Below are positions 3,988 through 25,371 of a stretch of 33,474 bases of DNA, piece by piece (positions within the stretch are counted from its first letter, which is position 1; every line of letters starts with the position of its first letter). Under the pieces are notes generated by a model. That model was not told the origin of the DNA. It ran no database searches and saw only the letters and a list, made by a program, of their open reading frames with translations. The translations under genes were made by a program, and so were the position numbers. This stretch comes from Lachnospiraceae bacterium (lineage in GTDB: Bacteria; Bacillota; Clostridia; Lachnospirales; Lachnospiraceae), in the NCBI GenBank assembly GCA_022797375.1, contig JAAWKM010000024.1, positions 1-33,474 of the forward strand, in the 5' to 3' direction.

Positions 3988-4007
3988 CATTAAAAAAGTT
4001 CCCACAC

Positions 4008-4139
4008 ACGTCCGTTTCATAAAAATCCCCATGCCGTGCTTTGCACGGCACAAATAGTAATGAAAAATGCTGTCTTAGAATCATTTCTCACACTATTTCC
4101 AGTTATTCTGTGTTTAGAAACGGACGCATGGAACCTGCT
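4008..4139. repeat. Dispersed intergenic repeat, copy 1
   Basis: The left edge CGTCCGTTTC (4009-4018) is the exact reverse complement of GAAACGGACG (4117-4126). Inside is a small hairpin, GCCGTGCTTTGCACGGC. The outer right edge GGACGCATGGAACCTGCT (4122-4139) recurs at 33429-33446 with 16 of 18 identical. The left edge and an internal TTTCCAGTTAT also recur at 33231-33259. It is noncoding and lies between a promoter and a terminator. The two copies differ in their interiors. Confidence 0.6.
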
Positions 4140-4146
4140 ATAATAA

Positions 4147-4182
4147 ATAACAAGGTATCCTTACATCTGGACACCTTGTTAT
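4147..4182 (-). terminator. Terminator of the flavodiiron gene
   Basis: 14-bp arms with one mismatch: ATAACAAGGTATCC (4147-4160) and GGACACCTTGTTAT (4169-4182), 8-nt loop. On the minus strand the stem is followed by TTATTATAG. It lies 38 bases past the stop at 4221. Confidence 0.7.
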
Positions 4183-4220
4183 CTTATAAACCAGCAGCAG
4201 TTCCTGCCAGCAAGCTATTT

Positions 4221-5378
4221 TTAAACCATTGCATTAACAATTTCTTCAATAGCAGCCTTATCTGCCTCTTTCATAACGGATTTAATGCTAACCCTCTTTT
4301 CACAAATTTCAATGTTTTTCATGCTTTCTAACATATCCGCCATCTTCTTTGCAGCAACTGGCGCCCATGAACCATTTTCAATAAGTGCCACTTTGCGCTT
4401 CTGGTAATTCTTGCTTTTTAAATGTGCAAGAAAATCTTCCATAACAGGGAAAAGACCTCCATCATATGTTGCTGATGCAAGTACCATACGGTCATATCTA
4501 AATGCAGCCTCAATTGCTTCTGCCATATCATCTCTTGAAAGGTCAAATAATTCCAGCTTATCTACACCTTTATTTTTAAATATTTCTGCACATTCTTTAG
4601 CAGCTTTTGCTGTATTTCCATGAATTGAAGCATATGCTACAAGCACCCCTTTATCCTCTGGCTCATAACTGCTCCATATATCATATTTATTAATATAATA
4701 TCCTAAATCTTCTTTAAGTACTGGTCCATGTAACGGGCATATTATTGCAATGTCAAGTCCTGATGCCTTTTTAAGAAGTGCCTGTACCTGTGCACCATAT
4801 TTCCCCACTATATTAAAATAATAACGTCTTGCTTCACATGCCCAGTCATCTTCTTCATCAGAATTAATTGCACCAAATTTGCCAAAACCATCAGCAGAGA
4901 ATAATATTTTCTCACTCTTTTCATATGTAACCATAACCTCTGGCCAGTGCACCATAGGTGCCATAAAGAACTGAAGTGTATGGCTTCCTATAGAAAGTAC
5001 GTCTCCTTCCTTAACTGTAACTGTCCTTTCAGATAAATCAAAATCAAAGAACTGTGGAAGCATCTGGAATGTTTTAGCATTGCCAACAAGTTTCATACCA
5101 GGGTACATCTCTGCAATCTTCTGTATATTAGCCGCATGGTCAGGCTCAAGGTGGGAAATTACAAGATATTCAGGTGACTTGTCCCCAAGTACATCTTTAA
5201 GGTTTGACACCCATTCATCAGTTGCCCTTGCATCAACAGTATCCATTACTGTAATCTTCTCATCCATAATTACATATGAATTATAGGAAACACCCTCTGG
5301 TACAACATACTGGCTTTCAAATAAATCAATATCTTTATCATCCACCCCAATGTACTTAACGCTATCAGTTACAAACAT
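4221..5378 (-). CDS. Flavodiiron protein (FprA/FDP), O2 or NO reductase
   Basis: Cytosolic enzyme that reduces O2 to water or NO to N2O through a diiron site, protecting an anaerobe. The 385 residues comprise a metallo-beta-lactamase-like domain (about 1-250) and a flavodoxin domain (about 253-385). Diiron ligands are visible: H76, E78, D80 and H81 in SHLEPDH, the histidine in MVHWPE, the aspartate in SADGFGKFG and the histidine in CPLHGPV. FMN-binding loops in the second domain include YASIHGNTAKAAK and SATYDGGLFPVMEDF. The length is that of a minimal FDP, without rubredoxin or flavin-reductase fusion. AAGGAGGA precedes the ATG. The gene is monocistronic between its promoter (5431-5458) and terminator (4147-4182). 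O2 versus NO preference cannot be read from sequence. Confidence 0.95.
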   Translation of the reverse strand: MFVTDSVKYIGVDDKDIDLFESQYVVPEGVSYNSYVIMDEKITVMDTVDARATDEWVSNLKDVLGDKSPEYLVISHLEPDHAANIQKIAEMYPGMKLVGNAKTFQMLPQFFDFDLSERTVTVKEGDVLSIGSHTLQFFMAPMVHWPEVMVTYEKSEKILFSADGFGKFGAINSDEEDDWACEARRYYFNIVGKYGAQVQALLKKASGLDIAIICPLHGPVLKEDLGYYINKYDIWSSYEPEDKGVLVAYASIHGNTAKAAKECAEIFKNKGVDKLELFDLSRDDMAEAIEAAFRYDRMVLASATYDGGLFPVMEDFLAHLKSKNYQKRKVALIENGSWAPVAAKKMADMLESMKNIEICEKRVSIKSVMKEADKAAIEEIVNAMV

Positions 5379-5430
5379 TTTAACTTCCTCCTTATATATA
5401 AATTTTTATGGTATGCTTCGTTTCCGCTTT

Positions 5431-5458
5431 ATTATACACCATAATACATACATGTCAA
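5431..5458 (-). promoter_or_regulatory. Strong sigma-A promoter of the flavodiiron gene
   Basis: On the minus strand: consensus TTGACA (5458-5453), a 16-base spacer and consensus TATAAT (5436-5431), about 50 bases before the start codon. No operator is recognised. Confidence 0.8.
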
Positions 5459-5478
5459 ATAAATTATTAATAAGAACA

Positions 5479-11944: not shown

Positions 11945-12634
11945 TCACATCTTCTGCATAAGCTTGTCAAGCCCCTGGTTTTTAATATTATCTATTGACT
12001 TAAAAATATGCTCATTAGCAAGACGTTCTGCCCTTGCCTCGTCTTTATCCTTAACTGACTGTAATATTGCCTTATGTTCTGCACTTGCCATACTTGCACG
12101 TTCATATGATGATAATGTATTCTTTCTTACACGTTCAACATAATGATGGTAATCTGAAAGTATATGTTCAAGTATTTTACTGCCACATGCCTCATACATT
12201 GCCAGGTGGAACCTGTTATCAAGCTCAAAAATCTGGTCCCAGTGCCCCTTTCCAATATGGAACTCACTTAGATAAATAATCTCCTCAAGATTTTCAATCT
12301 GGCTTGCAGTAATATTTCCACATGCCCATTTGGCACAAAGACCTTCCAGATATGAACGTATAACATATATATCATATATATCCTTTGATGTAATCCCATT
12401 TACATATGCACCCTTATTAGGAATAATAGAGACAAGCCCTTCCAGTTCAAGCTGCCTTAACGCCTCCCTTACAGGAGTACGTGAAACACCCATTTCCTTG
12501 CTGATTGCCGCTTCCCTCAATTCTGACTTTTCAGGGTAGTTACCTGCAAGTATATCCTCACGTATCTTATTAAACACCTTGCCACGCAAGGAATATTTAT
12601 CCATAACTTCTTTATTTACAATATAATTATCCAT
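11945..12634 (-). CDS. GntR-family transcriptional regulator, FCD subfamily
   Basis: 229-residue dimeric repressor or activator. An N-terminal winged helix (about 15-80) has the GntR signature ISKEMGVSRTPVREALRQLELEGLV. The C-terminal all-helical FCD domain (about 90-220) carries likely metal/effector residues, including the aspartate and histidine in ELDNRFHLAMYEACG and the histidine in SAEHKAILQSVKDKD. FCD regulators usually sense organic or sugar acids. AGGGAG lies 11 bases before the ATG. It has a good promoter at 12732-12760 overlapped by a palindrome that may be its own operator. Whether it controls the neighbouring glycan genes is inference. Confidence 0.93.
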   Translation of the reverse strand: MDNYIVNKEVMDKYSLRGKVFNKIREDILAGNYPEKSELREAAISKEMGVSRTPVREALRQLELEGLVSIIPNKGAYVNGITSKDIYDIYVIRSYLEGLCAKWACGNITASQIENLEEIIYLSEFHIGKGHWDQIFELDNRFHLAMYEACGSKILEHILSDYHHYVERVRKNTLSSYERASMASAEHKAILQSVKDKDEARAERLANEHIFKSIDNIKNQGLDKLMQKM

Positions 12635-12731
12635 TTCCCTGCTATCTCCCTAGAGAATAATTCTATACTATAGCGTAAAATGCGCCAGATTAAGCCTGCC
12701 AAAAAATAATAAGGCAGTTCATCTGCATATA

Positions 12732-12760
12732 ATTGTATACATTAGTACAATTAATGTCAA
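12732..12760 (-). promoter_or_regulatory. Promoter and likely operator of the GntR gene
   Basis: On the minus strand: consensus TTGACA (12760-12755), a 17-base spacer and TACAAT (12737-12732). The -10 and spacer are covered by an interrupted inverted repeat AATTGTA-8-TACAATT (12731-12752) that contains the palindrome TGTATACA. Many FCD-type GntR proteins bind TTGTATACAA-like sites, so autoregulation is plausible. Confidence 0.65.
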
Positions 12761-13504
12761 ACCTTTTCTAAAAATATTGTATTTTTAAACTTACACAAAA
12801 CCTGTTCAAAAAAATCATTATGCTATTTTATAAAATTTCTTCTTTTCACCTTATTTCTGTACTGCTTTTTGCACATAATCCAAATTTATGGGAGATAGCA
12901 CGCCAGACACAAACTTTATAGATGAAATTTATCTTTGTTGCCAGCTTGCTGGTTTTGCAAAAACCTTCCATTCTTTTACCTAAGCTTTCCATAACATATT
13001 CCACGAATATCATATACATTACAAAAAATACTCTAGGTAATTATTAATAATTAATATTGTATATTAGTACTTCACATACCTCTTTATTGGTTATAATACT
13101 AGACTTGAAATATTATTTAATAAATAATATTATTGTATTATTCACTTCAAAGGATGGTATGTTTAACTATGGGATTAATTATAGAACTTATTAATGTAAG
13201 AACAATTCAAATATTGTATAAAAAATAACAAATATGGAATTGGATAAGGATAAAATAGATTATAATAATCTACAGGTCCTAAAAATACCTGTTATTTTAT
13301 AATTTCTAGGGTAAAAAGTCAAAAAAGATAAATTAAGGAAACTTCAGCAAGAAAACATAGAGCTGTAACATTAAAAATAGAAAATACAAGATATAGGATT
13401 TTATCAAGATAAATTTTCTTTCTCCCCCCCCCTCACCATTTTTATATAACCATACAACAGATATTAATTAATTTTTGTACTTGTTCTCTTTATATACAAA
13501 TAAA
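12761..13504. other. AT-rich intergenic region without a supported gene
   Basis: About 740 bases of very low GC. It holds a perfect AT palindrome (13109-13131, 10-bp arms), a run of nine C (13424-13432) and ATTGTATATTAGTAC near 13053, which resembles the GntR promoter/operator sequence. An 11-codon plus-strand frame near 13160 has an AAAGGA before it but nothing recognisable. This starts the decayed zone that runs to 14.9 kb. Confidence 0.6.
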
Positions 13505-13961
13505 TTATCTTACCAAAGATTTATAATAACTGTTCTCTTCATTAATATATTCATATAACTGTATTTTTCCACGCACTATTGTTTTTGCAGCCATAGCAAA
13601 CATTAATGGTGCTGTAGTATCAGGGAATAAATGTATCTTTTTTCTATTTTCTTTTATATAGCCATTAATAGTTTCTCTCAAATAATTTGCTCTGTTTCTT
13701 AAGTCATCAATATTTTCTATAGTTTTCTTTTCTTGAAATAAATAGATTTTACAGTATTTCTGTCCCTGTTTTTCCAAATAAAACTTCACCGTTTCCAAAT
13801 TCTTCTTCAAACACTTCTGCACTTGCCAATTCTTCTTGTTTTAATATATCCATAAAGAAGCAGCCATCAAAAATATCTTTAAACTCCTTTTTAATAATTT
13901 TAGCTATTTCCTCATCCTTATGTGCATATGATAATGCTACCTCATAATTCTCTTTTATCAT
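13505..13961 (-). pseudogene. Broken TIR-SAVED (CBASS effector-like) gene
   Basis: Two overlapping frames hold the two ends of one gene. The first (ATG at 13961) starts MIKENYEVALSYAHKDEEIAK and continues to FFMDILKQEELASAEVFEEE, like the first half of a bacterial TIR domain, then stops at 13749. The second frame (from about 13822 to 13505) ends with KKIHLFPDTTAPLMFAMAAK, then GKIQLYEY and YYKSLV, which resembles the C-terminal end of a SAVED cyclic-oligonucleotide sensor. In intact TIR-SAVED proteins the TIR degrades NAD when the SAVED domain binds a CD-NTase signal. Most of the TIR core and the SAVED N-terminal part are missing and the frame is shifted. No CD-NTase gene is nearby. The TIR call is fairly firm, the SAVED call moderate. 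Confidence 0.55.
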
Positions 13962-14600
13962 AATTATAAACCGCCTTTCTATGAGAGCTTTCCTTAAATT
14001 ATAAAACCCTTCCAATGATAATCTTTTGATTTAAAATCAGCTTTACATATTTATAAAACTGTATCTCAAACTATTTATAGACAAGCTGTACTTTTATTAA
14101 TAGCCAGAAAACCTGTGTATCTAGCTGCTTCTGCATTTTTATTGATATGTATGGTAAGTTTTGCATATGCCTGGATTTCTGCAGCGGCTGAAAGCATAAA
14201 ATAATACCTTTTCAATTCCACCCTCTTTAAACCTTTTATGTAGAACAACAGGTTTAAAGTTCCAGATATTTTTTTCATTCATTACTTAGTTCAGTTATTG
14301 ATACTTTTTTACCTATGAAAATATCCTCAGAAATTTTTATAAAGACATTACAACATAATTTATAAATATAGTCTAGCTATTAAAAACGTGTTATGCTAGT
14401 ATGATATTAATTATTATAATTTTTTAACTATATAGAAAAAGGTTATATTATATTTGAAATAAGAAAATATTCTACAATATAGATTACTTAATCAGACTAT
14501 CTTATCAAGAAAAATAATAATTGAAAAATAGATTTTTAAAAAACCAATTGCTTTTATAAAAGTAAAAAATTAGATGAAATAGAAAAGCAAATGTATATGC
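13962..14600. other. AT-rich intergenic region, possible gene fragment on plus strand
   Basis: No intact gene is supported. A plus-strand open frame of about 60 codons ending at 14203 reads as a hydrophobic C-terminus (ARKPVYLAASAFLLICMV, then an Ala-rich end) but has no start codon with a ribosome site. A minus-strand frame at 14075-14278 lies over it and also lacks one. The remainder (14280-14600) is nearly pure AT with many stops. Confidence 0.45.
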
Positions 14601-14936
14601 TTAAATTTCTCTATCCATAAGTTCTATTACCTGATCCACGTCCTCCAAAATTCCGGTTTTGTATGTTACAATAATTACTGTCCTGTCCCTTAGTTTTTTA
14701 TTCATCAATGTGTTATTCCAACAATACCTCTGTTATAAATTCCACTAGCCCACTATCTTCACAAATAGAACGTATATCCTTATCCGCCATCCGTTTATAA
14801 AGGCAAATATTATTATGGATAGTATCATTAAACAGATAATTGCAGGCTGGACACCAGATTAGAACCTAACCATTATTGTTCTTTTATAATCTTTTAAGAG
14901 TGCAAACAATTTTTGCACTACTTCTTTATTACTCAT
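14601..14936 (-). pseudogene. Remnant of an ABC exporter following the protease
   Basis: Three pieces lie in order. (a) An ATG at 14936 overlaps the protease stop by 8 bases and gives MSNKEVVQKLFALLKDYKRT, like the N-terminus of an exporter before its first membrane helix; it stops at 14859. (b) A second frame contains YLFNDTIHNNICLYK (about 14841-14791), then a D-loop-proximal helix, ending at 14713; this is the sequence just after the Q-loop of an ABC ATPase. (c) A third frame (14705-14601) reads NKKLRDRTVIIVTYKTGILE then DVDQVIEL, the H-loop region, with Tyr where the catalytic His is expected. Walker A, signature and Walker B motifs and all membrane helices are missing. It was probably the export gene of the adjacent RiPP cluster, translationally coupled to the protease. 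Confidence 0.78.
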
Positions 14937-16320
14937 TACTTTCATCTGTCAGCAGCTCCACCATATGATGATATAAGGTGTTTATATTCTCTGTTCTGGT
15001 AAATATCATTTTTACCCTGATATGCCCATAATAATATATATCTGCCGATACCTGTCCATCTACAAGTGAAATATCAACAAACATATCTGTCCCTTTTTGT
15101 TCTGATTCACTCTCAAAAATTATAATGTCTGACTGATTGTAGTAAGTCTGCCAGTATAGGAAATCATGTAATATTTCTTTCTTATCTGCATTACATACCT
15201 CCACTGGTATATATTCCAAATCATACAAGACACTTTCCGTCCTATGGCTTATGGTATAAGCATTATATCCATCATTTCTGAAACATTCTCTTAACTGTAT
15301 AAGCCAGAACAAATCATCCAGGCTCTTATCTATTCTGAAAATGATAACCGGAATGTCTATATCTGCTTCTCTTTTTTTACTATTTGCAATCTGGATTTCC
15401 CGCTGCGCCTTACACCAAAAATGCCTGTTGGCTGCTCTATCCTCAATCAGTTCTTCCCCCAAATACACAATATGTTTATTGTAATTTCCATATAAATTAT
15501 ATTCCGCCCTGTTTTGCAATACAATCGTATCTATTTGTGCATGGCAACTCTCATACGTTCCTTTTTTCTGCGTAAAATAATAAGATGCCCTGCTAACCTT
15601 GCATGCTGACGAAAACCACGCATTTTCTATCCAATCAGGATAAACAGGATGTATATAATTTTCCGGAAACATCCTGCTCTTTATTTGGCACACATTATAA
15701 TCTGTATTTTCTGCCAATATGCTTCCAACTTTTGCCATAATGTATGGTGCTGCATAGCTGTTACTCTTTCCAAGAGTAAAAATATAATTACCAATACTTA
15801 TTTCATGTTCGGAAGGTGCAACAAATTCCACGCCTATCTGCCAATTCAAATTCATATCTATTGCATATTCTAATCCAGATGCAACACCAATAACATTAGA
15901 AAAAGAAGCTGGATAAGTCCTATATCCACTATTAGCAGTTGCAGCTACAATAACCATACCTCTGTTAGCATAATGGTTAATCACATGGCGGATAACTGTT
16001 TTATCCATAAAATGTGTTGTCCCAAAACTTAGATTTACTAACCAGATACCGTTTTGATAACAATACTCCAGTGCAGGCTGCAATTTATCTATAATACCTT
16101 TGCCATTATCTGCAAGTATTCTTATACTATGCAATACAACCTTTGGATTATATTTCTCAATAATCATTGCACAATTAGTGCCATGTATAGACTGCTGTTC
16201 ATTGAAACATAGATTGTCTGGTTCAATCTGATTGAATGCGCCTACTGTCACTTTGTCCTTTACTGGCCGCATAAGCAACCCGTTGTTTACTCCATTATCT
16301 ATAAGTGCAACTTCTACCAC
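14929..16320 (-). CDS. Cytosolic subtilisin-like (S8) protease of the RiPP cluster
   Basis: 463 residues. The N-terminal 215 residues are a subtilase domain with an intact site: D8 in ALIDNGV, H46 in IHGTNCA, oxyanion N130 in ATANSG and nucleophile S188 in GKSNSYAAPY. There is no signal peptide and no pro-domain; the catalytic Asp is at residue 8, so the enzyme should be cytosolic and active as made. The remaining 250 residues are unrecognised. The start is a GTG, the only canonical start between the in-frame stop at 16347 and the catalytic Asp; AGGGAAGG lies 12 bases upstream. It is 26 bases past the acyl-carrier-related gene and is the last intact gene of the cluster. The likely job is removing the leader of the Cys-rich peptide; this is inferred from position. 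Confidence 0.85.
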   Translation of the reverse strand: MVEVALIDNGVNNGLLMRPVKDKVTVGAFNQIEPDNLCFNEQQSIHGTNCAMIIEKYNPKVVLHSIRILADNGKGIIDKLQPALEYCYQNGIWLVNLSFGTTHFMDKTVIRHVINHYANRGMVIVAATANSGYRTYPASFSNVIGVASGLEYAIDMNLNWQIGVEFVAPSEHEISIGNYIFTLGKSNSYAAPYIMAKVGSILAENTDYNVCQIKSRMFPENYIHPVYPDWIENAWFSSACKVSRASYYFTQKKGTYESCHAQIDTIVLQNRAEYNLYGNYNKHIVYLGEELIEDRAANRHFWCKAQREIQIANSKKREADIDIPVIIFRIDKSLDDLFWLIQLRECFRNDGYNAYTISHRTESVLYDLEYIPVEVCNADKKEILHDFLYWQTYYNQSDIIIFESESEQKGTDMFVDISLVDGQVSADIYYYGHIRVKMIFTRTENINTLYHHMVELLTDESNE

Positions 16321-16346
16321 TTTCCAATCCAGCCTTCCCTTTGCAA

Positions 16347-16613
16347 TTACTCAGATACTTGTTTATCAATAACTGCATTTACCATATTGTCAAGATAATC
16401 AAACCGTTTTTCAGTAATATCCTTTTCAACAAAGATAATATCATACTTTCTCTGTAATTCAAAAAACAAAGTCAGCAAATCCCGTGGCTGTAATCCAATG
16501 GAAGCATCCAGCAGACTCTTTTCTTTGCTATAATCATTCAGTTTTTGCTGATTTATACCAATCTTTTCAGAAATCAGCCTGATAATTTCATTTTTAATAT
16601 TTTCTCTTTCCAT
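16347..16613 (-). CDS. Peptide-maturation acyl-carrier-related protein
   Basis: 88 residues, predicted four-helix acyl-carrier-like fold: IKNEIIRLISEKIGI, then LLDASIGLQPRDLLTLFFEL, then QRKYDI and a C-terminal helix. When aligned on the helix-II motif FFELQRKYDI, the position that carries phosphopantetheine serine in true carriers (DSL) falls on proline in LQPRD. It matches, as I remember it, the TIGR04069 acyl-carrier-related family that accompanies CcpM maturases. The ATG at 16613 has AAGGTGGT seven bases upstream and is preferred to a longer frame from 16649. It sits 13 bases past the TIGR04066 gene. Its role may be to present or bind the precursor without carrying an acyl group; this is inference. 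Confidence 0.75.
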   Translation of the reverse strand: MERENIKNEIIRLISEKIGINQQKLNDYSKEKSLLDASIGLQPRDLLTLFFELQRKYDIIFVEKDITEKRFDYLDNMVNAVIDKQVSE

Positions 16614-16626
16614 TTTATGTACCACC

Positions 16627-17718
16627 TTAATATGATTTAAACCGGCCATATTGCTGCAAACATCCTATCATATAGTCATATAATTCCTTACTTTCAATAC
16701 ATTCCGAATTAAAAACCTGATATTTCCCCTCTGCTATAGTCTTTCTCCTAGCAAAAGAATATGACAAATCATTTGCATTAATAGAAAGAGATATGGGAAC
16801 AAAATGAGAATTATAGAAACAGTCAATATCTATATTAAACTTATAATTACAAAGTTTTATCATTTCCTCATAAAATTCATCTGTGTATTCACCATTAAAT
16901 AAAGACATAATTGTAAAATCGGGTGAAACAGCATTAAAGATTTCAAAAGCAGGAATCCCATACCGGAATGTATGTTTATGGGTATATGGCACCAATGCAT
17001 CCGGGATACCAATAATAAACACATCTGGCTTTTCCTCTGCTTCAATGTCTTTTATAAATTGGTTTATCCTTGCAATCTTTTCCGTCTCAGGAAATGTGTT
17101 ATCATATAACGGTTCTCCCCATGTATGAAAACCAAAGAGCTGGCTGTTCTGTTTTGTTCCAATCTGACTTACTTTATAACCATTATGCAGAAGCTGGTTT
17201 CTAAAATATAGCTGCAAATCAAATTTCTGTGTCATTGGTGCAAGCCCGCAGACCGCAATAACCGGTGTATTAATCCGGTTTCTCTCTGATGGCAGTCCAA
17301 CGCTATTTAGATTGATCACCTTTTTATTTCCAACTAAGTCAAAATTATCAATCAATTTTACATCTTTCCTCTGACATAGCTTTCCAATCATTTTAGAAAA
17401 ATCATTTTCATAAGCCATATTAACCACATAGGAACACTTAGAAAGTATTTTATCTAATTCTTCTATTCTGTCTGTAATAGGTAATTTAAGTATAGATTCT
17501 GTTATTAGCAGCGTATCAATATTTGCATATTCATCATCAGCCAATTCACTTTTTATAATATAGCCGGATTTTTCATCCTGCAAATAGTATCCATCTCTTC
17601 CTGAATTTCCAAATCCCATTGGCGAAAGCAGATATACTATTTCAATATCCTTTAACATGTCCCGGTATTTAAGTGTCGAAATAAATTCAAAATCATAAGG
17701 GTATATAACTGCTTTCAT
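16627..17718 (-). CDS. TIGR04066-type peptide maturation protein
   Basis: 363 residues, cytosolic. I recognise the overall sequence as the TIGR04066 family (from memory), known only next to clostridial radical SAM peptide maturases. It has no signal peptide and no helices. Visible conserved-looking blocks are MKAVIYPYDFEF at the start, PVIAVCGLAPMTQKFDLQLY near residues 152-171, LFGFHTWGEPLYDNTFPETE near 195-214, and DVFIIGIPDALVPYTHKHTF near 232-251. The arrangement hints at a nucleotide-binding alpha/beta fold in the central part, but no catalytic residues can be assigned. The ATG overlaps the maturase stop (ATGA) and has GAGGTG before it, so the two are translationally coupled and probably act together. 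Confidence 0.8.
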   Translation of the reverse strand: MKAVIYPYDFEFISTLKYRDMLKDIEIVYLLSPMGFGNSGRDGYYLQDEKSGYIIKSELADDEYANIDTLLITESILKLPITDRIEELDKILSKCSYVVNMAYENDFSKMIGKLCQRKDVKLIDNFDLVGNKKVINLNSVGLPSERNRINTPVIAVCGLAPMTQKFDLQLYFRNQLLHNGYKVSQIGTKQNSQLFGFHTWGEPLYDNTFPETEKIARINQFIKDIEAEEKPDVFIIGIPDALVPYTHKHTFRYGIPAFEIFNAVSPDFTIMSLFNGEYTDEFYEEMIKLCNYKFNIDIDCFYNSHFVPISLSINANDLSYSFARRKTIAEGKYQVFNSECIESKELYDYMIGCLQQYGRFKSY

Positions 17719-19172
17719 CTTTTCACCTCTTTCTCAAAGTCGCAATGGTTATCACATAATACAATATAATCTTTTATATCACTTTCAATCTGGTTGCGAA
17801 GCCTATTGCAATTTGATAGTCTCCTTTTCTTTGATAATTCTCCATTTTCTTCTGCCATTGCAATACACTGGGAACATAAACGAAAACACCAGCAATTCTT
17901 ACATTCTTTTTCCGTAAGTTGTGCTACGTTTAACAACCCCGAAATCTTGTCCATATCAAAGCCATCCTCAAGATTTCCAATATAATATGTTTCAGACGCT
18001 TCATCCACTCTTTCACATGGATAAAATCTGCCATCTGCATTTACAAAAAATCTCTGCGCCCCAGGCAGACACTGCCCGCCTGGACAATCATAATTGGTCT
18101 TTGAATTTTTGGCTACCATCCGGTTATAATAAAGTTGCTTGATTCCACGAAAACGGCCATCCATAAGTGTTGGTTTATATATCTTAAATATGTCTGAACA
18201 ATAGAATAATAAAACCTTAAATTCTTCATACAATGCATCTGTTACATACTCTCTGTTGATTACAAGTTCTTCTTGTCTATTTGCATCATTTATTATATTC
18301 CCCATAACAAAAATTTCTTTTACGGTATCATATGACATAAAAAAGTCATTGGCACATCCTATATCTTTACTCAAATCAATAACAGCATTGAATGTGATTT
18401 TTTTAAGGAACTCTGGATAACAGCCCTTTATCCGCTCCAAATTCTCCATTACAATATCAAATGTCCCGCTTTCTTTATCCGCAAATACCCTGTTTCCATC
18501 TTGGATTATTTTGGGTCCATCTAAGCTGATTGAAAGATAAAAATTGTGTTCCAAAAGAAACTGTACAATTTCATCTGTAATCAATGTTGCATTTGTTGTC
18601 ATATTAAAAGATAATTTTTTACCTTTGAAAAGTTCTTCCGCATATATAACCACTTTTCTTATTAACGCAATCTCCAATAAAGGTTCTCCACCATAGAAAC
18701 CTAATGATACTTCCCTGCTATTCCTTGTATGTTCATAATAGAAGTCAACTGCTTTTTTAGCTACTTCCCATGTCATTCTCTTATTGGTATGTGTACGATT
18801 GATATAACTCCCCGAATATACACAATATTTACAACGCAGGTTACAGTTTTGTGTAACCTGTAACGTCATCAAAGACAAGTTACTACCAAACAATTCTTGT
18901 AAAATATCTGTTTCAATATGTTTTATCTGTAAATCATTATTAACTGGATGCAATAATCCCTGGTCTTCTAAATACATAATCCCTTGCTTTACTTTTTCAT
19001 TCATTGATTTCAATTTATTGTTTATCTTGAAATTATCAGAGCAATAAACTAGCTCTCTTAAAAAGATAAATACATCATCTGGAATGGAAACAATAGAATT
19101 TGTATCTACATCATATAAAAATTTTCTATCATATACTTCAAATAAATGAATATTTGGTTTTTCATTCAACAT
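17715..19172 (-). CDS. ccpM: Radical SAM/SPASM peptide maturase (CcpM-type)
   Basis: 485 residues. An N-terminal part (about 1-95) resembles a precursor-recognition (RRE-like) region. The radical SAM core (about 100-320) has the [4Fe-4S] motif C110, C114 and C117 in TQNCNLRCKYC and the SAM-binding FYGGEPLLE near 159-167. A C-terminal SPASM domain (about 350-465) is rich in Cys: CPGGQCLPG, FYPCERV, then CKNCWCFRLCSQC and a final Cys in LSNCNR, enough for two auxiliary clusters. Such enzymes install thioether or other crosslinks in Cys-rich precursors. GGAGG lies six bases before the ATG. It follows the 64-aa precursor after an 84-base gap with a strong hairpin. It fits the clostridial Cys-rich-peptide maturase family CcpM (TIGR04068, from memory). 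Confidence 0.9.
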   Translation of the reverse strand: MLNEKPNIHLFEVYDRKFLYDVDTNSIVSIPDDVFIFLRELVYCSDNFKINNKLKSMNEKVKQGIMYLEDQGLLHPVNNDLQIKHIETDILQELFGSNLSLMTLQVTQNCNLRCKYCVYSGSYINRTHTNKRMTWEVAKKAVDFYYEHTRNSREVSLGFYGGEPLLEIALIRKVVIYAEELFKGKKLSFNMTTNATLITDEIVQFLLEHNFYLSISLDGPKIIQDGNRVFADKESGTFDIVMENLERIKGCYPEFLKKITFNAVIDLSKDIGCANDFFMSYDTVKEIFVMGNIINDANRQEELVINREYVTDALYEEFKVLLFYCSDIFKIYKPTLMDGRFRGIKQLYYNRMVAKNSKTNYDCPGGQCLPGAQRFFVNADGRFYPCERVDEASETYYIGNLEDGFDMDKISGLLNVAQLTEKECKNCWCFRLCSQCIAMAEENGELSKKRRLSNCNRLRNQIESDIKDYIVLCDNHCDFEKEVKR

Positions 19173-19195
19173 CTTTTACCTCCAAGTATTCTTAA

Positions 19196-19229
19196 TAAGG
19201 TCATGTCAACACAAGCTGACATGACCTTA
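19196..19229 (-). promoter_or_regulatory. Hairpin between precursor and maturase genes
   Basis: Perfect 13-bp arms TAAGGTCATGTCA (19196-19208) and TGACATGACCTTA (19217-19229), 8-nt loop. No T-run follows on the minus strand, so it is better explained as a stabiliser or partial attenuator. It would let precursor mRNA exceed maturase mRNA. Confidence 0.65.
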
Positions 19230-19256
19230 CCTTACTCCAGCACAAAATACAATATC

Positions 19257-19451
19257 CTAAATCAAAGAAGCATTGTTAAATCCACCCTGATTAGTATTAG
19301 TAGTTACAGTTTTTAAAACAGATGAACCATTTGTCTTAAGAGTACTACCTGTACAATTAGTGCATGTCGAACAATAGCAATAGCATGTTACACATGCATA
19401 TGCCATAAATGTCCCTCTTTCAAAGGAACCCTTTTTCCCTAACTTGCTCAT
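19257..19451 (-). CDS. Cys-rich RiPP precursor peptide (Clo7bot-like)
   Basis: 64 residues. A short basic leader (MSKLGKKGSFERGTFM) leads into AYACVTCYCYCSTCTNC, where six cysteines (20, 23, 25, 27, 30, 33) fall within 14 residues with spacing CX2CXCXCX2CX2C. A 31-residue tail rich in Thr, Asn, Ser and Gly follows (TNGSSVLKTVTTNTNQGGFN) with no Cys. There is no signal peptide and no double-Gly export site. AAAGGAG lies 11 bases before the ATG. Position directly before a radical SAM/SPASM maturase, and the TIGR04066 and acyl-carrier-related partners, identify it as the substrate. It is probably of the Clo7bot Cys-rich family, but I cannot check the profile. Expected crosslinks are Cys thioethers, possibly to the Thr/Asn tail. 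Confidence 0.85.
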   Translation of the reverse strand: MSKLGKKGSFERGTFMAYACVTCYCYCSTCTNCTGSTLKTNGSSVLKTVTTNTNQGGFNNASLI

Positions 19452-19572
19452 AATTACTTTTTCTCCTTTCCTAAATTTAATGTAAAAGATTGTTAAATCT
19501 GTACATTATCTACTTTGTATTTCTATATTTCTATTCATATACCATAACTCATATTAATGTAAATAATCCTTT

Positions 19573-20190
19573 TTATATCTTCATATCCAAATTGATACCT
19601 GCAATTGCTTCTTTTTCCTTCTTGTTAATCTGGCGTTTTTCCTCAATCCCAGCTCTGCCTCTTTTCTTTTTTTCATTCTTCCTGTGGATTTTCTCTACAT
19701 TTTCGGATATAGTTTGTAAATGAGATTTTGTATTTGGATCTTTTGTAACAACTGCCCAACTGCTAATGCCCCCATCTTTATCAACTGCCCAACCTTGTGC
19801 ATCAACTCTCCAGCCACGGGCAGCCTGCATTTGCGTAAATTGTTCATCGCATCTTTGCATAGCTGCAATATTTTTTTCATATTCCGCTTCCAATTCAGAA
19901 TCATTTGCCATTTTTGTCAAAAATTGTGGGGAGATTGCAACATTTATGGTTGAATTGGAGCCATATTTCATTCCTTTAGAATAATTGGCAGATATAAAAC
20001 TGTAATTACTATATTTATTGGAAAGGTATGATAATTCATCCGCTGCTGTTTTCCTTGCCAAAGATTGTACCTCTGGACTGGTTTTATCTGTCCTACGGCT
20101 TTCTATTGCCCATTTCTGGTTATTGTTTTTCGTGACATATGCAGAATTACCAATATAACTATTATATGTGTTACTAATTTCCATCAACAT
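19573..20190 (-). CDS. DUF6033-like small protein of the agr/RiPP island
   Basis: 205 residues, no signal peptide. The sequence begins MLMEISNTYNSYIGN and includes the blocks YLSNKYSNYSFISANYSKGM, VAISPQFLTKMANDSELEAEY and RGWRVDAQGWAVDKDGGISSW. It ends in a very basic tail (KIHRKNEKKKRGRAGIEEK). I recognise this as the DUF6033-type family common in Lachnospiraceae; the number is from memory and the function is unknown. The start is the ATG at 20190, with GGAGAG seven bases upstream; a longer frame to 20253 is rejected because it lacks a ribosome site. It lies between another small gene and the RiPP precursor, with a 121-base AT-rich gap before the precursor. It may be a regulated product of the agr system rather than a maturation enzyme. 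Confidence 0.75.
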   Translation of the reverse strand: MLMEISNTYNSYIGNSAYVTKNNNQKWAIESRRTDKTSPEVQSLARKTAADELSYLSNKYSNYSFISANYSKGMKYGSNSTINVAISPQFLTKMANDSELEAEYEKNIAAMQRCDEQFTQMQAARGWRVDAQGWAVDKDGGISSWAVVTKDPNTKSHLQTISENVEKIHRKNEKKKRGRAGIEEKRQINKKEKEAIAGINLDMKI

Positions 20191-20288
20191 ATTATTGCTC
20201 TCCTTTCTCCTTAAATATCTCTGTGCAAATAGCATATAATGTACTATTCCCACAGAGATTATTCATTTAAATGCCTGTCAGCAATATA

Positions 20289-20894
20289 TTACTTGCCCAA
20301 AATTTCTTTTAGGATTTCATCCAGCCTATTGTCTATGGCACTGGTATGGGCAGTGCCTTTCAAGAAAGCTTGGTATTTCTCTTCATCTGGCTTGTAAAGA
20401 TTGTTATTAGAAAAATATGTCTGCGGTTTTTTTTCAATTAATCCCCATAGTTCTTTAACTTCTTGGCTTCCACCATCATTAACACCCTTCTTCAGAGTAT
20501 TATTCTGATATTTCACTCCTGCCAATCCTAAATTTATAGATTTTAGCAAAGAACATGCATATTCTTTTTCTCCACTTCTGTTCTGTGAATCATAAACCGT
20601 CTCTCTGAACCGCTCAAATAACTCTTTGTAACTCTTTAGCTGTGCATCAATTTCTTCACAGACTCCAGACCAGTCAGATAAACTTCCATATGCAGTTTCT
20701 ATAAATTGACTGCTTTTTGTGCTTTTGGCACTATTATAAGCCTTGGCAAAAGCATCTCTTTCCCCGCCAAAGTATTTTCCTTCTGTAAACTTATTATCAT
20801 CTTTCGGAAAAGCAACACTCCTATCAAGATTTACATCGTTTTTCCTGATGTAAACATTTGGTGGAGCCGGACTATTAATAGTTAAGCCCATCAC
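20289..20894 (-). CDS. Hypothetical 201-aa protein of the agr/RiPP island
   Basis: I do not recognise the family. 201 residues, no signal peptide, no membrane segment. The N-terminus is Pro-rich (NSPAPPNVYIRKNDVNLDR). The middle looks helical (WSGVCEEIDAQLKSYKELFERF), with two isolated cysteines. The C-terminus ends in a helix (AIDNRLDEILKEILGK). Two consecutive ATG codons start it at 20894 and 20891, with AGAGGAAGG 10-13 bases upstream. It starts 14 bases past the secreted protein's stop and 98 bases before the DUF6033-like gene, so it is in the same transcription unit. The DUF6033-like neighbour is of similar length and lacks a signal as well; the two may work together, which is inference. 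Confidence 0.7.
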   Translation of the reverse strand: MMGLTINSPAPPNVYIRKNDVNLDRSVAFPKDDNKFTEGKYFGGERDAFAKAYNSAKSTKSSQFIETAYGSLSDWSGVCEEIDAQLKSYKELFERFRETVYDSQNRSGEKEYACSLLKSINLGLAGVKYQNNTLKKGVNDGGSQEVKELWGLIEKKPQTYFSNNNLYKPDEEKYQAFLKGTAHTSAIDNRLDEILKEILGK

Positions 20895-20908
20895 TATAAT
20901 ACCTTCCT

Positions 20909-22324
20909 CTAATTAAATTCAGTAAATGATTGTTTCATGTTAAGTGATAAATGGTAATAGTTTATTTCTGTATCAATTGCCTTTCCGGTTTTAGCATCTA
21001 CATAAAACAGAATATATTCTCCATCCTCAAACGGTTGATCAATCCAATCATAGTCTGCCCCACTTCCCGGAAATCTGCAAAAATATGTGTAAACAAAGTT
21101 ATCCATGTAAACTGCTATGCAGTCACCTGAAGATACTCCCTGTGATCCACTATATTGCCCATTCTTTAAGTATCCATTTAAAAAGGATGCGTTATCATTT
21201 GGTATAACATCCTGATTTCTTGTATAATTGACGGTATAATGATAAGACCATTTCATATCTGCGGCTTTACCATTAATATATAAAGCATATGTTGTCAATT
21301 CAACAATTTGACCTGTCTTAGTAAACATCATATCTGAATAAGAAGATTTTCTCTTCATGAGCTTCAGATTATAACTTTGTGCCGTACTGTAGCCCGTTGC
21401 ACTTGCAACTTTAATATAGTATTCTCCAGCATCTAAGTTTACAGTTCCTACTTTATTTTCGCTACATGACATTCCTGCTAAGAAATTTAATGATGAATCA
21501 AATACATATAAATTATATGTACAGTCATCGGGAATATTGGACATAGAAACAATATGAGTCCCTCCAGTTGAAACTGTTAATTTAGACCAATCCTGGTCAT
21601 ACATATTATCAATTGTGTTATTAACATCTATAGAATTTGAATATTCCACAGCATATGCAGGCATATCATCTGGTTCACAAGCATCGTATTCTGTTATTAG
21701 AGAAACCATGAAAAAGTATACAGCATCTGCTTCTGTTGCTACTGTTTGCGGAACCACCCTTAAAAAATAAAACCCATTTTCACCAGCTGCACTCAAATTT
21801 TCCATAGTTGAACCAGAATAAAGTGAATACGAAATTAATGATAGAGAACCATCGTCATTATACTTATATAAATAAATATCATAATCCCCACCTGATACTG
21901 GCTGCTCTAAAACAGCAGATATCTTACATGTTTCTTCTACCTGAAAGAAATACCAGTTTTCGGAATCAGATGCCGCATCAGCCAGCACATTTCCCATATA
22001 ACTGCTATCAAGGAACAATGCTGTATCTGCTGTACTATGTCCAGAATCACTAAATGGAACAATACCATCATCATCTGGAAGAGTGACATCTTCAAAAACA
22101 TCCTTTTGACTTGCAGTTTTCGTTTTTATGGAAATCTTCTCACCCATTGAATTGTCTAACTCCGGAAATGTAGTTTTTGCATCAGTTTCAATATCTGATG
22201 CACTTTTTACAACATCTCCTATTTCCTTTTCTGCCGCAAATGACGTTGCTACAGGTCCCACTGTCCCAACTACCAGACTTAATACCAACATTGCTGCTAC
22301 GTTTTTAAAATTTCTTTTTCTCAT
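20909..22324 (-). CDS. Secreted PPC-domain-like protein behind agrBD
   Basis: 471 residues with a clear Sec signal peptide (basic MRKRNFK, hydrophobic core, cleavage after TSFAA near residue 31). After an acidic linker come two beta-sandwich repeats of the bacterial pre-peptidase C-terminal type: about 90-205 (DSENWYFFQVEETCKISAVL, GGDYDIYLYKY, GENGFYFLRVVP) and about 215-325 (YDQDWSKLTVSTGGTHIVSM, DAGEYYIKVASATGY). The last 140 residues are a separate, unrecognised domain rich in aromatic residues. There is no protease domain and no sorting signal. GAGAGGT precedes the ATG; the gene begins 29 bases past agrD. PPC domains usually accompany secreted proteases, here without one. It is a likely quorum-regulated secreted product. 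Confidence 0.75.
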   Translation of the reverse strand: MRKRNFKNVAAMLVLSLVVGTVGPVATSFAAEKEIGDVVKSASDIETDAKTTFPELDNSMGEKISIKTKTASQKDVFEDVTLPDDDGIVPFSDSGHSTADTALFLDSSYMGNVLADAASDSENWYFFQVEETCKISAVLEQPVSGGDYDIYLYKYNDDGSLSLISYSLYSGSTMENLSAAGENGFYFLRVVPQTVATEADAVYFFMVSLITEYDACEPDDMPAYAVEYSNSIDVNNTIDNMYDQDWSKLTVSTGGTHIVSMSNIPDDCTYNLYVFDSSLNFLAGMSCSENKVGTVNLDAGEYYIKVASATGYSTAQSYNLKLMKRKSSYSDMMFTKTGQIVELTTYALYINGKAADMKWSYHYTVNYTRNQDVIPNDNASFLNGYLKNGQYSGSQGVSSGDCIAVYMDNFVYTYFCRFPGSGADYDWIDQPFEDGEYILFYVDAKTGKAIDTEINYYHLSLNMKQSFTEFN

Positions 22325-22353
22325 ACTGTTACCTCTCTTTCACATATGTTTAC

Positions 22354-22494
22354 TTATTTCTGTTTCTTTTGTGGTCTCATTGGCTGATGTAGAAGCCCGC
22401 CACATAACGGCGGCCATCCACGACGATTACGAACCACCTCATTTCTTGTAGCACGTTCAACTGCCTTCAAAACCTTTTTATCCAGCTTTTTCAT
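22354..22494 (-). CDS. agrD: AgrD-like autoinducing peptide precursor
   Basis: 46 residues, too short for ordinary gene calls. Its ATG overlaps the agrB stop (ATGA) and has AGGAGGTG eight bases upstream, inside the end of agrB. The N-terminus is a basic amphipathic helix (MKKLDKKVLKAVERA). The core NRRGWPPLCGGLLHQPMRP has a single cysteine, C31. The last residues are basic (QKKQK). Position after an AgrB with its catalytic Cys and His, and the WPP-x-C-x-G / QP-x-RP pattern that I recall from Lachnospiraceae cyclic lactone peptides, support the call. The ring is probably a thiolactone from C31 to a residue four or five further on. The basic tail differs from the acidic tail of staphylococcal AgrD. 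Confidence 0.88.
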   Translation of the reverse strand: MKKLDKKVLKAVERATRNEVVRNRRGWPPLCGGLLHQPMRPQKKQK

Positions 22495-23048
22495 GCCGCT
22501 TTCACCTCCTGATGTAATATTTTAGAAATAATCAATAATATAGCACATAGCATCACTGCCGTTGCCATATAACTTATAAAAATCATTTCAACATTTAACA
22601 ATCCTGCAAAAAAAATCACAAATAGTTCTATACCTAGAACTTGTTGTGCTGTTTTTCTTGACTCTAATAGTTCTTCTTTACTCATATGTATACAAGGGTG
22701 ATTTACAGTCCCTATTAAACATATTATTACTGATGCAAGAATTACCCCCACATAAAGCACAAGACTATTTTTTACTAATATAGGATGTATGCAAAAAATA
22801 ATTATATAAGTTCCAACAGTTTCCAAATAACAGAAAAGGAATGTATTAGCATGATATCCGCCTGTTCTTTTCCTTAATCCTGTAAAAAATAACAAAAAAA
22901 GTATTGTTTGAAATAAACATTCTAAAAATATACTGATTAACAAAATACTACCTATACCAATAATTTTTTCAATATAAATTTGTAGTACATATATATAATC
23001 TTCTCTCATTTTGTCATCTATCAATTTTTCACAAACCATTTGTTCCAC
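22491..23048 (-). CDS. agrB: AgrB-like accessory peptidase, processes AgrD
   Basis: Membrane cysteine endopeptidase that cuts the AgrD tail and forms the thiolactone. 185 residues from the GTG at 23048, with about five membrane segments. Family motif RKRTGGYHANTFLFCYL holds the catalytic H66 and C73, seven apart as in AgrB. The frame stays open upstream and reads IVEKFVKNIVEQM from 23075; AgrB proteins usually begin in this way (M-x-EKF/L). A strong AAAGGAGGG ends seven bases before an ATC at 23075, while the GTG has no good ribosome site. The true start may therefore be non-AUG, adding nine residues. The stop overlaps agrD. Upstream lie the tandem repeats at 23133-23162. Confidence 0.92.
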   Translation of the reverse strand: MEQMVCEKLIDDKMREDYIYVLQIYIEKIIGIGSILLISIFLECLFQTILFLLFFTGLRKRTGGYHANTFLFCYLETVGTYIIIFCIHPILVKNSLVLYVGVILASVIICLIGTVNHPCIHMSKEELLESRKTAQQVLGIELFVIFFAGLLNVEMIFISYMATAVMLCAILLIISKILHQEVKAA

Positions 23049-23132
23049 TATATTTTTTACAAACTTTTCAACGATAATAATCCCTCCTTTATTGTTATAA
23101 TAAAATTTTTCAGTTAAAATTCAAGATAATTT

Positions 23133-23162
23133 GCAAAAAACGCATTTTTAGAGCAAAAAACG
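23133..23162 (-). promoter_or_regulatory. Tandem repeats, candidate LytTR binding sites upstream of agrB
   Basis: GCAAAAAACG occurs at 23133-23142 and again at 23153-23162, exactly 20 bases apart (two helical turns). On the coding strand this is CGTTTTTTGC twice. LytTR regulators bind direct repeats spaced by about two turns. TTGACA (23178-23173) lies just upstream and could be the -35. No good -10 is visible. The adjacent LytTR regulator is the obvious candidate protein. Confidence 0.5.
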
Positions 23163-23299
23163 GAAATGGAGCTGTCAATTTAACGAATAAAAATTTATTT
23201 GCTGCCAATATATTTGGATTGTCACTTATAGATGCAATTTTTTATTTTTGGCATAAAATATGCTCCCTCCTAAGTAACAAGTTTTATTATTTTACTTGT

Positions 23300-24646
23300 C
23301 TACCTAGAAGGGGGCATATCACTTAGTGCGGCAACCCCTTTTCTGTTTTGGGGAATAATAATTGAAAAATAAAACTCTCCATTATCTGGCTTTATCACAT
23401 AAGAACCTCCATATTTTTCTATCACATTGGTAATATTGCAAATTCCTATTCCATGTTCATCTTGTTCATTTTTTGTCGTCAAAAACATCCCATCATGTTT
23501 AACTAATGCATTTTCATATGTATTTTTCACTGAAATTATTGTTACATTTTTTTCAATAATAAATTTCAATTTTACAACTTTTTTTTCATGACATTTTTCA
23601 CATGCCTCTATTGCATTATTAAGTAAATTTGATAAAATCACCACAATATCTTCATCAGATACCGTTAATTGGGACAAATCATTTATACGAAACACAAATA
23701 TAATATTTTTTTCCATCATCTCACCATACTTGGTATTTAATATTGCATCTACTATCACATGGTTTGTACTAATATTATCTGATTCTGTTTCCAACACATC
23801 CCCAATTTGATTAATATAGCTATTTACTTCTTTTATTTTATTTCTTTTTAAAAGCGACTTTATACACACCAATTGATTTTTGTATTCATGCGACTTCCTC
23901 CGTTGTTTTTCAAGATTTTCTGAAATGGAATAATACATTTCCGTCTGATTTTTCATTTGAAGACGAAAAATTTTATCTTCATAGATCTCATTTTCTCTTT
24001 TCATAATATCGCTAATTAAATAGAATACTACTATATTCATTCCAACTAAGCCAAATGCTATCATAAAAAAAATAATATCTTTATTCTGGGGATTTGGGGC
24101 TCCCAATACAAAAATCATGCCTGCTATAGTGCAAATAGTATAAATAGGGAAAAAAATAAATTTTACCCAATCAGAATCTTTCATAATTTGTATTTCATAA
24201 TCCCCTACTGCTTTACGGATAACCAGCACAATTAAAAAAAGGAATACCTTATCAAGCAAAACTAATAAACCACCTTGAATATAATAAATATTGTCTATCT
24301 TGGCAACATTCTTAAAAACTGTTACACACAATAAAAATGTCAGATAATCTACCACAAACATAAGCCCTTCGTATAAAAAGGCCATAATCAGCGTTTTAAC
24401 GAAACTTATTTCCATAATGCAATACATCACTATAGCAATTCCGGCAACCACCATAAGCACTTTTAATAAAACCATCTGTTCAAAAAACAAAGCACTACAA
24501 AAAAATTCTACAATCAACAGAAGTATTAATATATGTTCTATCCATTCATTTTCTTTTTTTCTTTTATTTCCAAACGCTCCATAAAATATTTTACAACATA
24601 ATACTTCCAAAACAATTATCAATGCACTTTCTATATAAGCAAACAT
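23300..24646 (-). CDS. agrC: AgrC-like sensor histidine kinase
   Basis: 448 residues. Six or seven N-terminal membrane helices (about 3-215) form the peptide sensor. A coiled linker leads to the phosphoacceptor histidine (near 253) in RRKSHEYKNQL, typical of the HPK10 class. The ATPase has the N box LSNLLNNAIEAC near 344-355 and the G box EHGIGICNI near 399-407. I chose the ATG at 24646 with GGAG seven bases upstream; it overlaps the regulator stop by one base (TGATG), so the two are translationally coupled. The C-terminus carries a short extension (GVAALSDMPPSR). It should sense the peptide made from the downstream agrD and phosphorylate the LytTR regulator. About 250 bases of noncoding DNA separate it from agrB. 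Confidence 0.9.
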   Translation of the reverse strand: MFAYIESALIIVLEVLCCKIFYGAFGNKRKKENEWIEHILILLLIVEFFCSALFFEQMVLLKVLMVVAGIAIVMYCIMEISFVKTLIMAFLYEGLMFVVDYLTFLLCVTVFKNVAKIDNIYYIQGGLLVLLDKVFLFLIVLVIRKAVGDYEIQIMKDSDWVKFIFFPIYTICTIAGMIFVLGAPNPQNKDIIFFMIAFGLVGMNIVVFYLISDIMKRENEIYEDKIFRLQMKNQTEMYYSISENLEKQRRKSHEYKNQLVCIKSLLKRNKIKEVNSYINQIGDVLETESDNISTNHVIVDAILNTKYGEMMEKNIIFVFRINDLSQLTVSDEDIVVILSNLLNNAIEACEKCHEKKVVKLKFIIEKNVTIISVKNTYENALVKHDGMFLTTKNEQDEHGIGICNITNVIEKYGGSYVIKPDNGEFYFSIIIPQNRKGVAALSDMPPSR

Positions 24647-25371
24647 CACAACTCTCCTTTGTATGTCACATAATCATTCCATACCTCTTTATATCTTGCC
24701 TTTGGAACCGGAAAGTCCTTTCCATTATATAAAATAACCCTATAGCGGTAAATATTTTCAATATATTTTATATTTACTAAAAAGCTTTGATGGCATCTTA
24801 AAAATTGTCTGCTGTTAATATACCTCTCCATATTATTTAAGGTCCCATATATGGTGTAGGTAACAAATTTATCTTCCATTATATGAAATTCCAGCCTATG
24901 CTTTTTGCTTTCCACATACAAAAGACAATCTAAAGACACTGTTTTCTTTCCCTCATGAAATTCAAACTCTTTCCACGTTACATCATATTGCATTTTCTTA
25001 TATATGGCATCCATGCATTCTGCAATATGCCCCTGCATATTTCTGCTGCTCTTTAACAAAAAACGTATAGCATCCACCTTATATCCTTCCATACTATAAT
25101 CCACAAAAGCAGTAATAAAAACAATAAAGACCTCCTTATTTTGTTCCCTGATTTTTCTTGCCGTCATAAGTCCGTTTATACTATCCATATTAATATCCAA
25201 AAAAATAATCTGATATTGATTCAATTCAATACCCAAATCCAGTAATTCTTTACCTGACTGAAAAGTATCAATCTCATAAATTACTCCTTTATCTTGCATA
25301 TATTGTAGCAACATTTCTTTTATCCAATCTCTAAAAAAAGCTTCATCATCACAAATCGCTATAGTTAACAA
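24646..25371 (-). CDS. agrA: AgrA-like LytTR response regulator
   Basis: 241 residues. The receiver domain (about 1-125) begins ICDDEAFF and has the phosphoacceptor D59 in IIFLDINMDSINGL. The conserved Thr/Ser switch region is VFITAF near 89-94, and a lysine sits in IRFLLKS. The LytTR DNA-binding domain (about 135-238) contains VESKKHRLEFH, RQFLRCHQSFLVN and DFPVPKARYKEVWNDY. The start is TTG, with GGAG ten bases upstream. It is first in a two-gene unit with the sensor kinase and is regulator-first, unlike the staphylococcal agrBDCA order. It is expected to activate agrB and perhaps the whole RiPP run through the repeats at 23133-23162. Confidence 0.9.
   Translation of the reverse strand: MLTIAICDDEAFFRDWIKEMLLQYMQDKGVIYEIDTFQSGKELLDLGIELNQYQIIFLDINMDSINGLMTARKIREQNKEVFIVFITAFVDYSMEGYKVDAIRFLLKSSRNMQGHIAECMDAIYKKMQYDVTWKEFEFHEGKKTVSLDCLLYVESKKHRLEFHIMEDKFVTYTIYGTLNNMERYINSRQFLRCHQSFLVNIKYIENIYRYRVILYNGKDFPVPKARYKEVWNDYVTYKGEL

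Follow-up and report, generated by a model that had tools for sequence, protein, structure and literature searches.

An agr-type quorum-sensing circuit that recurs beside CcpM-type peptide clusters in Lachnospiraceae and probably controls them

Introduction

Clusters of the CcpM type, which encode a radical SAM/SPASM maturase for ribosomally synthesized and post-translationally modified peptides (RiPPs), have already been described in Roseburia intestinalis (PMC4573289) and Paenibacillus polymyxa (PMC10731318), and Bacillus subtilis into which the SacP23 cluster of the latter was cloned showed antimicrobial activity (PMC10731318). We describe a CcpM-type cluster that lies directly beside an apparently complete set of agr quorum-sensing genes on contig JAAWKM010000024.1 (assembly GCA_022797375.1) of a bacterium of the Lachnospiraceae, a family frequent in the gut; the whole stretch analyzed, 33,474 nt, is referred to as the window. 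Because agr and CcpM clusters are linked above chance in this family, and because one type of regulator box precedes both agrB and RiPP operons in relatives, control by cell density is the best reading, and it is probable that the agr circuit directly controls the RiPP operon, in the window from a single agrB promoter.

The closest regulated case is the agr-controlled LanM-like protein of Clostridium acetobutylicum (PMC10301443), and the agr promoters of Staphylococcus aureus have upstream direct repeats centred near -60 together with a suboptimal spacer between the -35 and -10 elements (PMC4227749). CcpM-type clusters are found widely in Clostridia, and the accessible text of the literature searched, which included few subscription journals, contained neither an account of their trigger in gut-type bacteria nor a paper joining agr with CcpM clusters; the accessible parts of PMC10885120, PMC13289728 and PMC8748961 make no such link. 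With a signal peptide predicted and a promoter box defined, it would become possible to switch on clusters of this kind and identify what they make.

Results

An earlier note on this DNA had claimed an unbroken minus-strand run from 25371 to 14929, and every gene that it named there is an open frame (all window features given below lie on the minus strand). The run starts with a LytTR response regulator resembling AgrA (24646..25371; LytTR 2.8e-17, Response_reg 5.1e-16), whose LytTR part is similar to that of the solved S. aureus AgrA (E about 7e-5) and which scores 65 bits with the NCBIfam AgrA equivalog, far under the cut-off of 400. It is followed by an AgrC-like sensor kinase of the GHKL type (23300..24649; HATPase_c_5 1e-29), 45-49% identical to full-length AgrCs adjoining other CcpM clusters, and the window thereby holds the kinase and regulator pair of an agr system. 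AgrB (22491..23075; PF04647 1e-27) has H74 and C81, invariant in an alignment of the window protein with five relatives, which we take to be the catalytic pair. The signal-peptide precursor AgrD (22354..22494, 46 aa, predicted ring C-G-G-L-L) overlaps agrB and gave no match in a hidden Markov model search of NCBIfam and Pfam; it is assigned by its position, its size, a PPLC-GGLL-HQP motif and its likeness to AgrD open reading frames (ORFs) near related AgrBs, with which it shares 45-54% identity and the pattern of a cysteine, four residues and HQP. The gene set has the AgrB, kinase and regulator of an agr system, with AgrD a candidate placed by motif.

Downstream lies the RiPP part of the run. 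A 64-aa precursor with six cysteines in its core (19257..19451) stands directly before CcpM and is 92% identical to the precursor of the related locus L083; we call it Clo7bot-like because it scores 22.4 bits with TIGR04065, under the curated cut-off of 26, and yet is a six-cysteine ORF before CcpM with this close counterpart. CcpM itself (17715..19172) reaches 515.3 bits with TIGR04068 (cut-off 500) and additionally matches the RumMC and PapB models, both under their cut-offs, and the TIGR04066 peptide maturation protein (16627..17718) scores 244.3 bits (cut-off 200). The TIGR04066 ORF overlaps by 23 bases that of an acyl-carrier-related protein (16347..16649), TIGR04069-like at 46.7 bits against a cut-off of 70, and the run ends with an S8 (subtilisin-type) protease (14929..16320; Peptidase_S8 1.3e-9), which has a QhpE-like match of 77 bits, under the cut-off of 165, and a TIGR04066-like stretch near its tail, and which is a probable leader peptidase. 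Among the identities proposed in the earlier note, CcpM and TIGR04066 are thus borne out by their curated models, the precursor and the TIGR04069-like protein remain below theirs, and AgrD stands on its motif.

The three accessory proteins claimed between agrD and the precursor are present and can now be typed as a secreted PPC-domain protein (20909..22324; PF04151 1.9e-7), a 201-aa protein (20289..20894) without a family match in NCBIfam (E up to 1) or Pfam (E up to 0.1), and a DUF6033 protein (19573..20190; PF19498 4.8e-18), the first gene of a cassette common to genomes G294 and G302. The coordinates confirm four-base overlaps of regulator and AgrC, AgrB and AgrD, and CcpM and TIGR04066. 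The short gaps that the note described at other junctions exist and are unequal, with about 224 nt before agrB, 98 before DUF6033, 121 before the precursor and 84 before CcpM.

To place this arrangement among its relatives, 397 Lachnospiraceae genomes were searched for TIGR04066, which was matched in 30, and AgrB positions were taken in 22 of the genome handles, two of which (G423 and G424) are duplicates and uncounted. Clusters were counted at 100 bits or more, with matches within 25 kb merged and the best four or five candidates per genome scored, so that some loci may have escaped the count, and the expected linkage was calculated from the sizes of the genomes and their numbers of AgrB genes. 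An AgrB no more than 10 kb away was found for 7/20 clusters, against 0.32 expected; with the window excluded the count is 6/19 against 0.30 (Poisson p 8e-7). The earlier note knew of no other such arrangement and proposed looking for the same order in other Lachnospiraceae: the pairing does recur, in five close cases (G302, G294, G056, G347 and G171) and a distant one on contig 4 of G114, where CcpM-like and TIGR04066-like proteins come after agrD. The G304 cluster (103.5 bits), outside the count of 20, brings it to 7/21 when added; its stretch L187, from 12.8 kb before to 6 kb after the TIGR04066 match, has no AgrB by profile. The count leaves out 13 genomes in which all TIGR04066 matches fall under 100 bits, weaker second matches in the genomes kept, and fragmentary AgrB matches (G302 C30, G000 C78, G479 C19 and one G559 piece; the two pieces in G298 were taken as one).

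A search at the level of the class covered 391 Clostridia genomes, 22 of them with a TIGR04066 match, and AgrB was sought in 16/20 besides G000 and G347; G471, G804, G544, G546, G631 and G711 were left out at under 100 bits. Two of the weak matches left out of the counts, on contig 8 of G804 and contig 2 of G347, do sit within 7 kb of AgrB. Outside the family, AgrB is found within 10 kb of 1/31 clusters of at least 100 bits and within 15 kb of 2/31, numbers that are not above chance and that rule out a general association of agr with CcpM in Clostridia; since there is no excess outside the family, the link is a trait of Lachnospiraceae and not of CcpM clusters generally. Two observations had been named as damaging to the proposed pairing, namely CcpM clusters that never carry agr and agr loci elsewhere. 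The former does not hold, and the latter does, the window genome having three further AgrB loci above cut-off. Three other candidates were rejected: L170 (G479) and L171 (G493) carry agr of other types close to CcpM and do not have the box described below, and L038 has a distant LytTR and kinase pair (25-26% identity) before CcpM, with no AgrB by profile.

In the agrB upstream regions of relatives there is a direct repeat in which about TTTTCTGC occurs twice at a period of 20-21 bp. A matrix built from ten of these regions (window and L080 excluded) was scanned over 26 loci, and box pairs above 28 bits were found in loci with this agr type; the best score in ten CcpM loci without agr nearby was 23.4 bits, and twelve further loci from other families had no box pair above 18 bits. 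The six agr-CcpM genomes hold 31 box sites, four of which are agrB sites used in training the matrix. In 23 of the 31, a TTG is placed exactly 8 bp downstream of the repeat, every other offset being found three times at most, and 17 of these 23 sites have a -10-like hexamer at a spacing of 16 bp, neither feature having played any part in the matrix. Box sites are located upstream of 7/8 CcpM operons in G302, G294, G056, G171 and G347, one of these operons being reached via a DUF6033 gene and having a gap of 211 nt ahead of CcpM (site at 15870 of L074); the eighth, in G347, has the agrB site alone upstream and its CcpM begins about 450 nt past agrD, a layout close to that of the window.

Across whole genomes, exact matches to the core pattern TTTCTGCN{13,14}TTTCTGC fall within these loci in 6/6 instances in G294, 6/8 in G302, 7/11 in G056 and 2/2 in G171, and one of the two outlying G302 matches sits at a contig end beside a fragment resembling AgrC (L180); exact matches are lacking in G347 and in the window genome. 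The reversed pattern gave 2 matches in the five relatives, and eight CcpM genomes without this agr type have 0-6 core matches each, none inside the CcpM stretches examined. A stricter pattern applied to the 397 genomes matched in 28, including 11 of the 13 with a regulator of at least 48% identity versus 17 of the 384 others (Fisher 2e-12, a value that is too small because the 48% threshold was set at a gap seen afterwards and because several of the loci trained the pattern). In G143 and G277, which were untrained, a box site adjoins the regulator. The neighbours of this agr type vary: at 2954-6535 of L124 (G223) the same agr type and box precede a 1193-aa VWA/DUF3289 protein and not a RiPP, and in G056 (L084, 16402-17076) a gene for a sigma factor of the extracytoplasmic function (ECF) type directly follows agrD and could relay the agr output.

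The window holds a single variant of this repeat, before agrB. The putative box (23133..23164) consists of TCCGTTTTTTGC and then TGCGTTTTTTGC 20 bp on, and the putative agrB promoter (23097..23124) has a -35 element TTGAAT 8 bp past the box, a 16-bp spacer and a -10 element TATTAT, the spacing of most sites in relatives. This repeat is the sole exact match in its own 3.94-Mb genome and was absent from 100 shuffles of the window; with three mismatches allowed there are two more matches in the genome, and three in all for the reversed control. The case for this candidate box rests on its position, its perfect repeat and the promoter spacing.

The agr modules and the cassettes have discordant histories. 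A regulator-plus-kinase tree rejects a single clade for the six CcpM-linked agr modules (approximately unbiased (AU) test, p 1e-6), and a CcpM tree rejects one for the nine linked CcpMs (AU p 7e-7), both trees containing long branches. The window cassette from DUF6033 to the acyl-carrier-related gene has 77-85% DNA identity to those of G294 and G302, and the regulators of these genomes are 52-54% identical to that of the window. At the DNA level the resemblance to L083 and L075 sets in at about 20193-20205 and is lost upstream of DUF6033, at the site of the relatives' box, which is not conserved. The simplest account would be that the same cassette has been coupled to different agr modules, with repeated loss of a linked partner as the alternative history.

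Among the loci scanned, a form of the box with T in place of C at the fifth core base occurs only in the window and on G114 contig 4. The regulators of both have Lys where 14 regulators with C-form boxes have Leu, beside a conserved His; in an alignment to the solved LytTR domain of S. aureus AgrA this His falls on that of Lys-Ser-His-Arg, and the AgrA His contacts DNA. With G290 included (Arg, an imperfect T form with two mismatches in the box), the table of residue and box reads 14-0-0-3, that is 14 Leu with C and 3 basic with T (Fisher 0.0015, post hoc). It covers 17 of 31 regulators plus the window box; the 14 left out for want of a clear box or for a tie include G040, G160 and G387 with a basic residue and G121 with Leu, and two of the Leu rows, G367 and G417, are near copies. 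As evidence of co-variation the table lends weak support. The LytTR change from Leu to Lys or Arg accompanies that from TTTTCTGC to TTTTTTGC, so regulator and box may co-evolve, within a tentative picture, to which we give somewhat less than an even chance, of an exchangeable Lachnospiraceae system in which agr modules and CcpM cassettes would be repeatedly re-paired, each cassette wired to the resident box, and circuits kept apart. The discordant pairing of regulator and cassette is a natural experiment on how quorum-sensing circuits acquire new outputs.

Two RNA hairpins are predicted in the run. One of 17 bp lies in the gap between precursor and maturase (19165..19262; -32.3 kcal/mol, z -5.4), has counterparts in L083 (z -2.3), L075 (z -5.3) and L081 (z -3.5, with another sequence) and was absent from the 43 nt tried in L084; it could set the precursor level above that of the enzyme. 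The other, also strong, is in the DUF6033 leader (20200..20285; -27.5 kcal/mol, z -5.8). DUF6033 proteins may be partners of CcpM clusters, as five DUF6033-like genes (3521-5471 and 12545-13880) flank one cluster in G590 (L182), where the AgrBs are far off. The G114 locus with the T-form box encodes a 621-aa TIGR04066-like protein and the CcpM-like protein after agr (L139, 9898-13433), and long TIGR04066-like frames of about 560-650 aa are found in further genomes too.

Discussion

Together, these data suggest a circuit in which AgrB would turn AgrD into a thiolactone signal whose ring has five residues, AgrC would sense this peptide, and the LytTR regulator would bind the direct repeat before agrB and activate its promoter. 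As the sole box in the window stands before agrB, transcription of the accessory proteins, precursor, CcpM, TIGR04066, acyl-carrier-like protein and protease would depend on read-through from the agrB promoter, with the hairpin after the precursor balancing precursor against enzyme. In relatives most RiPP operons have a box of their own. CcpM is expected to form thioether links from the core cysteines and the S8 protease to remove the leader, and by analogy to the published CcpM-type SacP23 a bacteriocin would be the likeliest product.

Several observations weigh against this scheme. With the relatives' matrix the window box scores 20.2 bits, inside the chance range (to 23.4), because its fifth core base is T and theirs is C. 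The association outside Lachnospiraceae shows no excess, the 11-of-13 count is partly circular with its threshold set post hoc, the CcpM operon of G171 sits upstream of agr, and the two stricter-pattern sites of G198 are away from its 48% regulator, one of them preceding another regulator of 41% identity. Internal promoters would fit into the gaps of 98-121 nt and cannot be judged, because a promoter scan found 62 sigma-70-like sites where 64 were expected by chance; promoter and terminator scans were uninformative. A rival reading is mere neighbourhood, with agr and the RiPP genes as common cargo of low-GC islands and the control by agr limited to its own operon and to secreted proteins close by. 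The island does have a low GC content (0.25-0.35, where the flanking 26-33 kb have 0.38-0.43), 13/20 clusters of the family lack AgrB within 10 kb, and related agr modules adjoin other cargo, such as the G223 protein. Mere neighbourhood is nevertheless unlikely, given that in relatives the same box at a fixed promoter spacing precedes both agrB and RiPP operons and that CcpM loci without agr do not exceed 23.4 bits (ten loci) or, in the twelve from other families, 18 bits. It is less probable still that the modified cysteine-rich peptide is itself the signal and agr merely regulates its synthesis, as the window already has an apparently full agrBD pair and the published CcpM-type product SacP23 is an antimicrobial (PMC10731318).

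A different question is whether the window copy still works. Directly after the S8 gene, where L075, L081, L083 and L084 have an open ABC exporter, the window has an exporter remnant with large internal deletions (14601..14936), which by tblastn matches residues 1-23, 263-275, 419-459 and 508-539 of the L075 exporter, and the ABC protein that scores best at any other place in the genome shares 26% identity with the exporter of the relatives. The position at which agrB homologs start is ATC in the window, the next usual start codon being a GTG at 23048. Adjoining the island downstream, two short ORFs (13505-14015) resemble what is left of an effector gene of the CBASS type; the one at 13505-13822 corresponds to the final part of a SAVED domain (PF18145 1.4e-6; SAVED-type effectors in PADLOC). 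The remnant and the unusual start may mean that the window copy is impaired, a further point against the scheme as it applies here, and the module may be functional in relatives and decaying in the window, where the peptide would no longer be made or exported. We consider this quite possible, if a little short of even, and compatible with agr control in relatives. Against it, the precursor, CcpM, TIGR04066, protease, AgrC and regulator are all open, and the proteins of the cassette share 68-92% identity with their counterparts in G294 and G302; the remnant and the ATC could be decay or draft-assembly error, which is possible at the exporter in particular. The earlier proposal that a cysteine-rich peptide is made at high cell density is therefore kept in part: linkage and the shared box favour density control as the best reading, and release of the peptide by the window strain is doubtful, since the exporter adjoining the protease is a remnant.

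With agr control of the RiPP operon as the preferred reading, the locus can be set beside known systems. Streptococcal tryglysin is reportedly a radical SAM RiPP under quorum-sensing control, and in this it is alike; it differs in having an Rgg receptor and SHP peptide in place of AgrC and a thiolactone.

The SacP23 cluster shares with the window a CLI_3235-family cysteine-rich precursor, CcpM (TIGR04068), TIGR04066, TIGR04069 and an ABC transporter, but its accessible description lists a sigma-24 gene and names no agr gene, and antimicrobial activity is shown for SacP23 and not for the window peptide (PMC10731318). The sactipeptide-like cluster of R. intestinalis L1-82, also from Lachnospiraceae, has CcpM, TIGR04066, TIGR04069, a subtilase and an ABC transporter, but no precursor was recognised there and agr is unmentioned in that paper (PMC4573289). 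CA_C0082 of C. acetobutylicum offers an adjoining, agr-controlled gene that resembles a RiPP enzyme, with some homologs in lanthipeptide clusters, although the LanM-like protein is without catalytic residues and is not a radical SAM enzyme (PMC10301443). The agr system of S. aureus has the same AgrB, AgrD, AgrC and LytTR regulator, and the window promoter, with its repeat centred at about -58 and its 16-bp spacer, is similar in layout; gene order and the repeat differ, and the outputs in the window and its relatives are RiPP operons, in the window by the reading preferred here.

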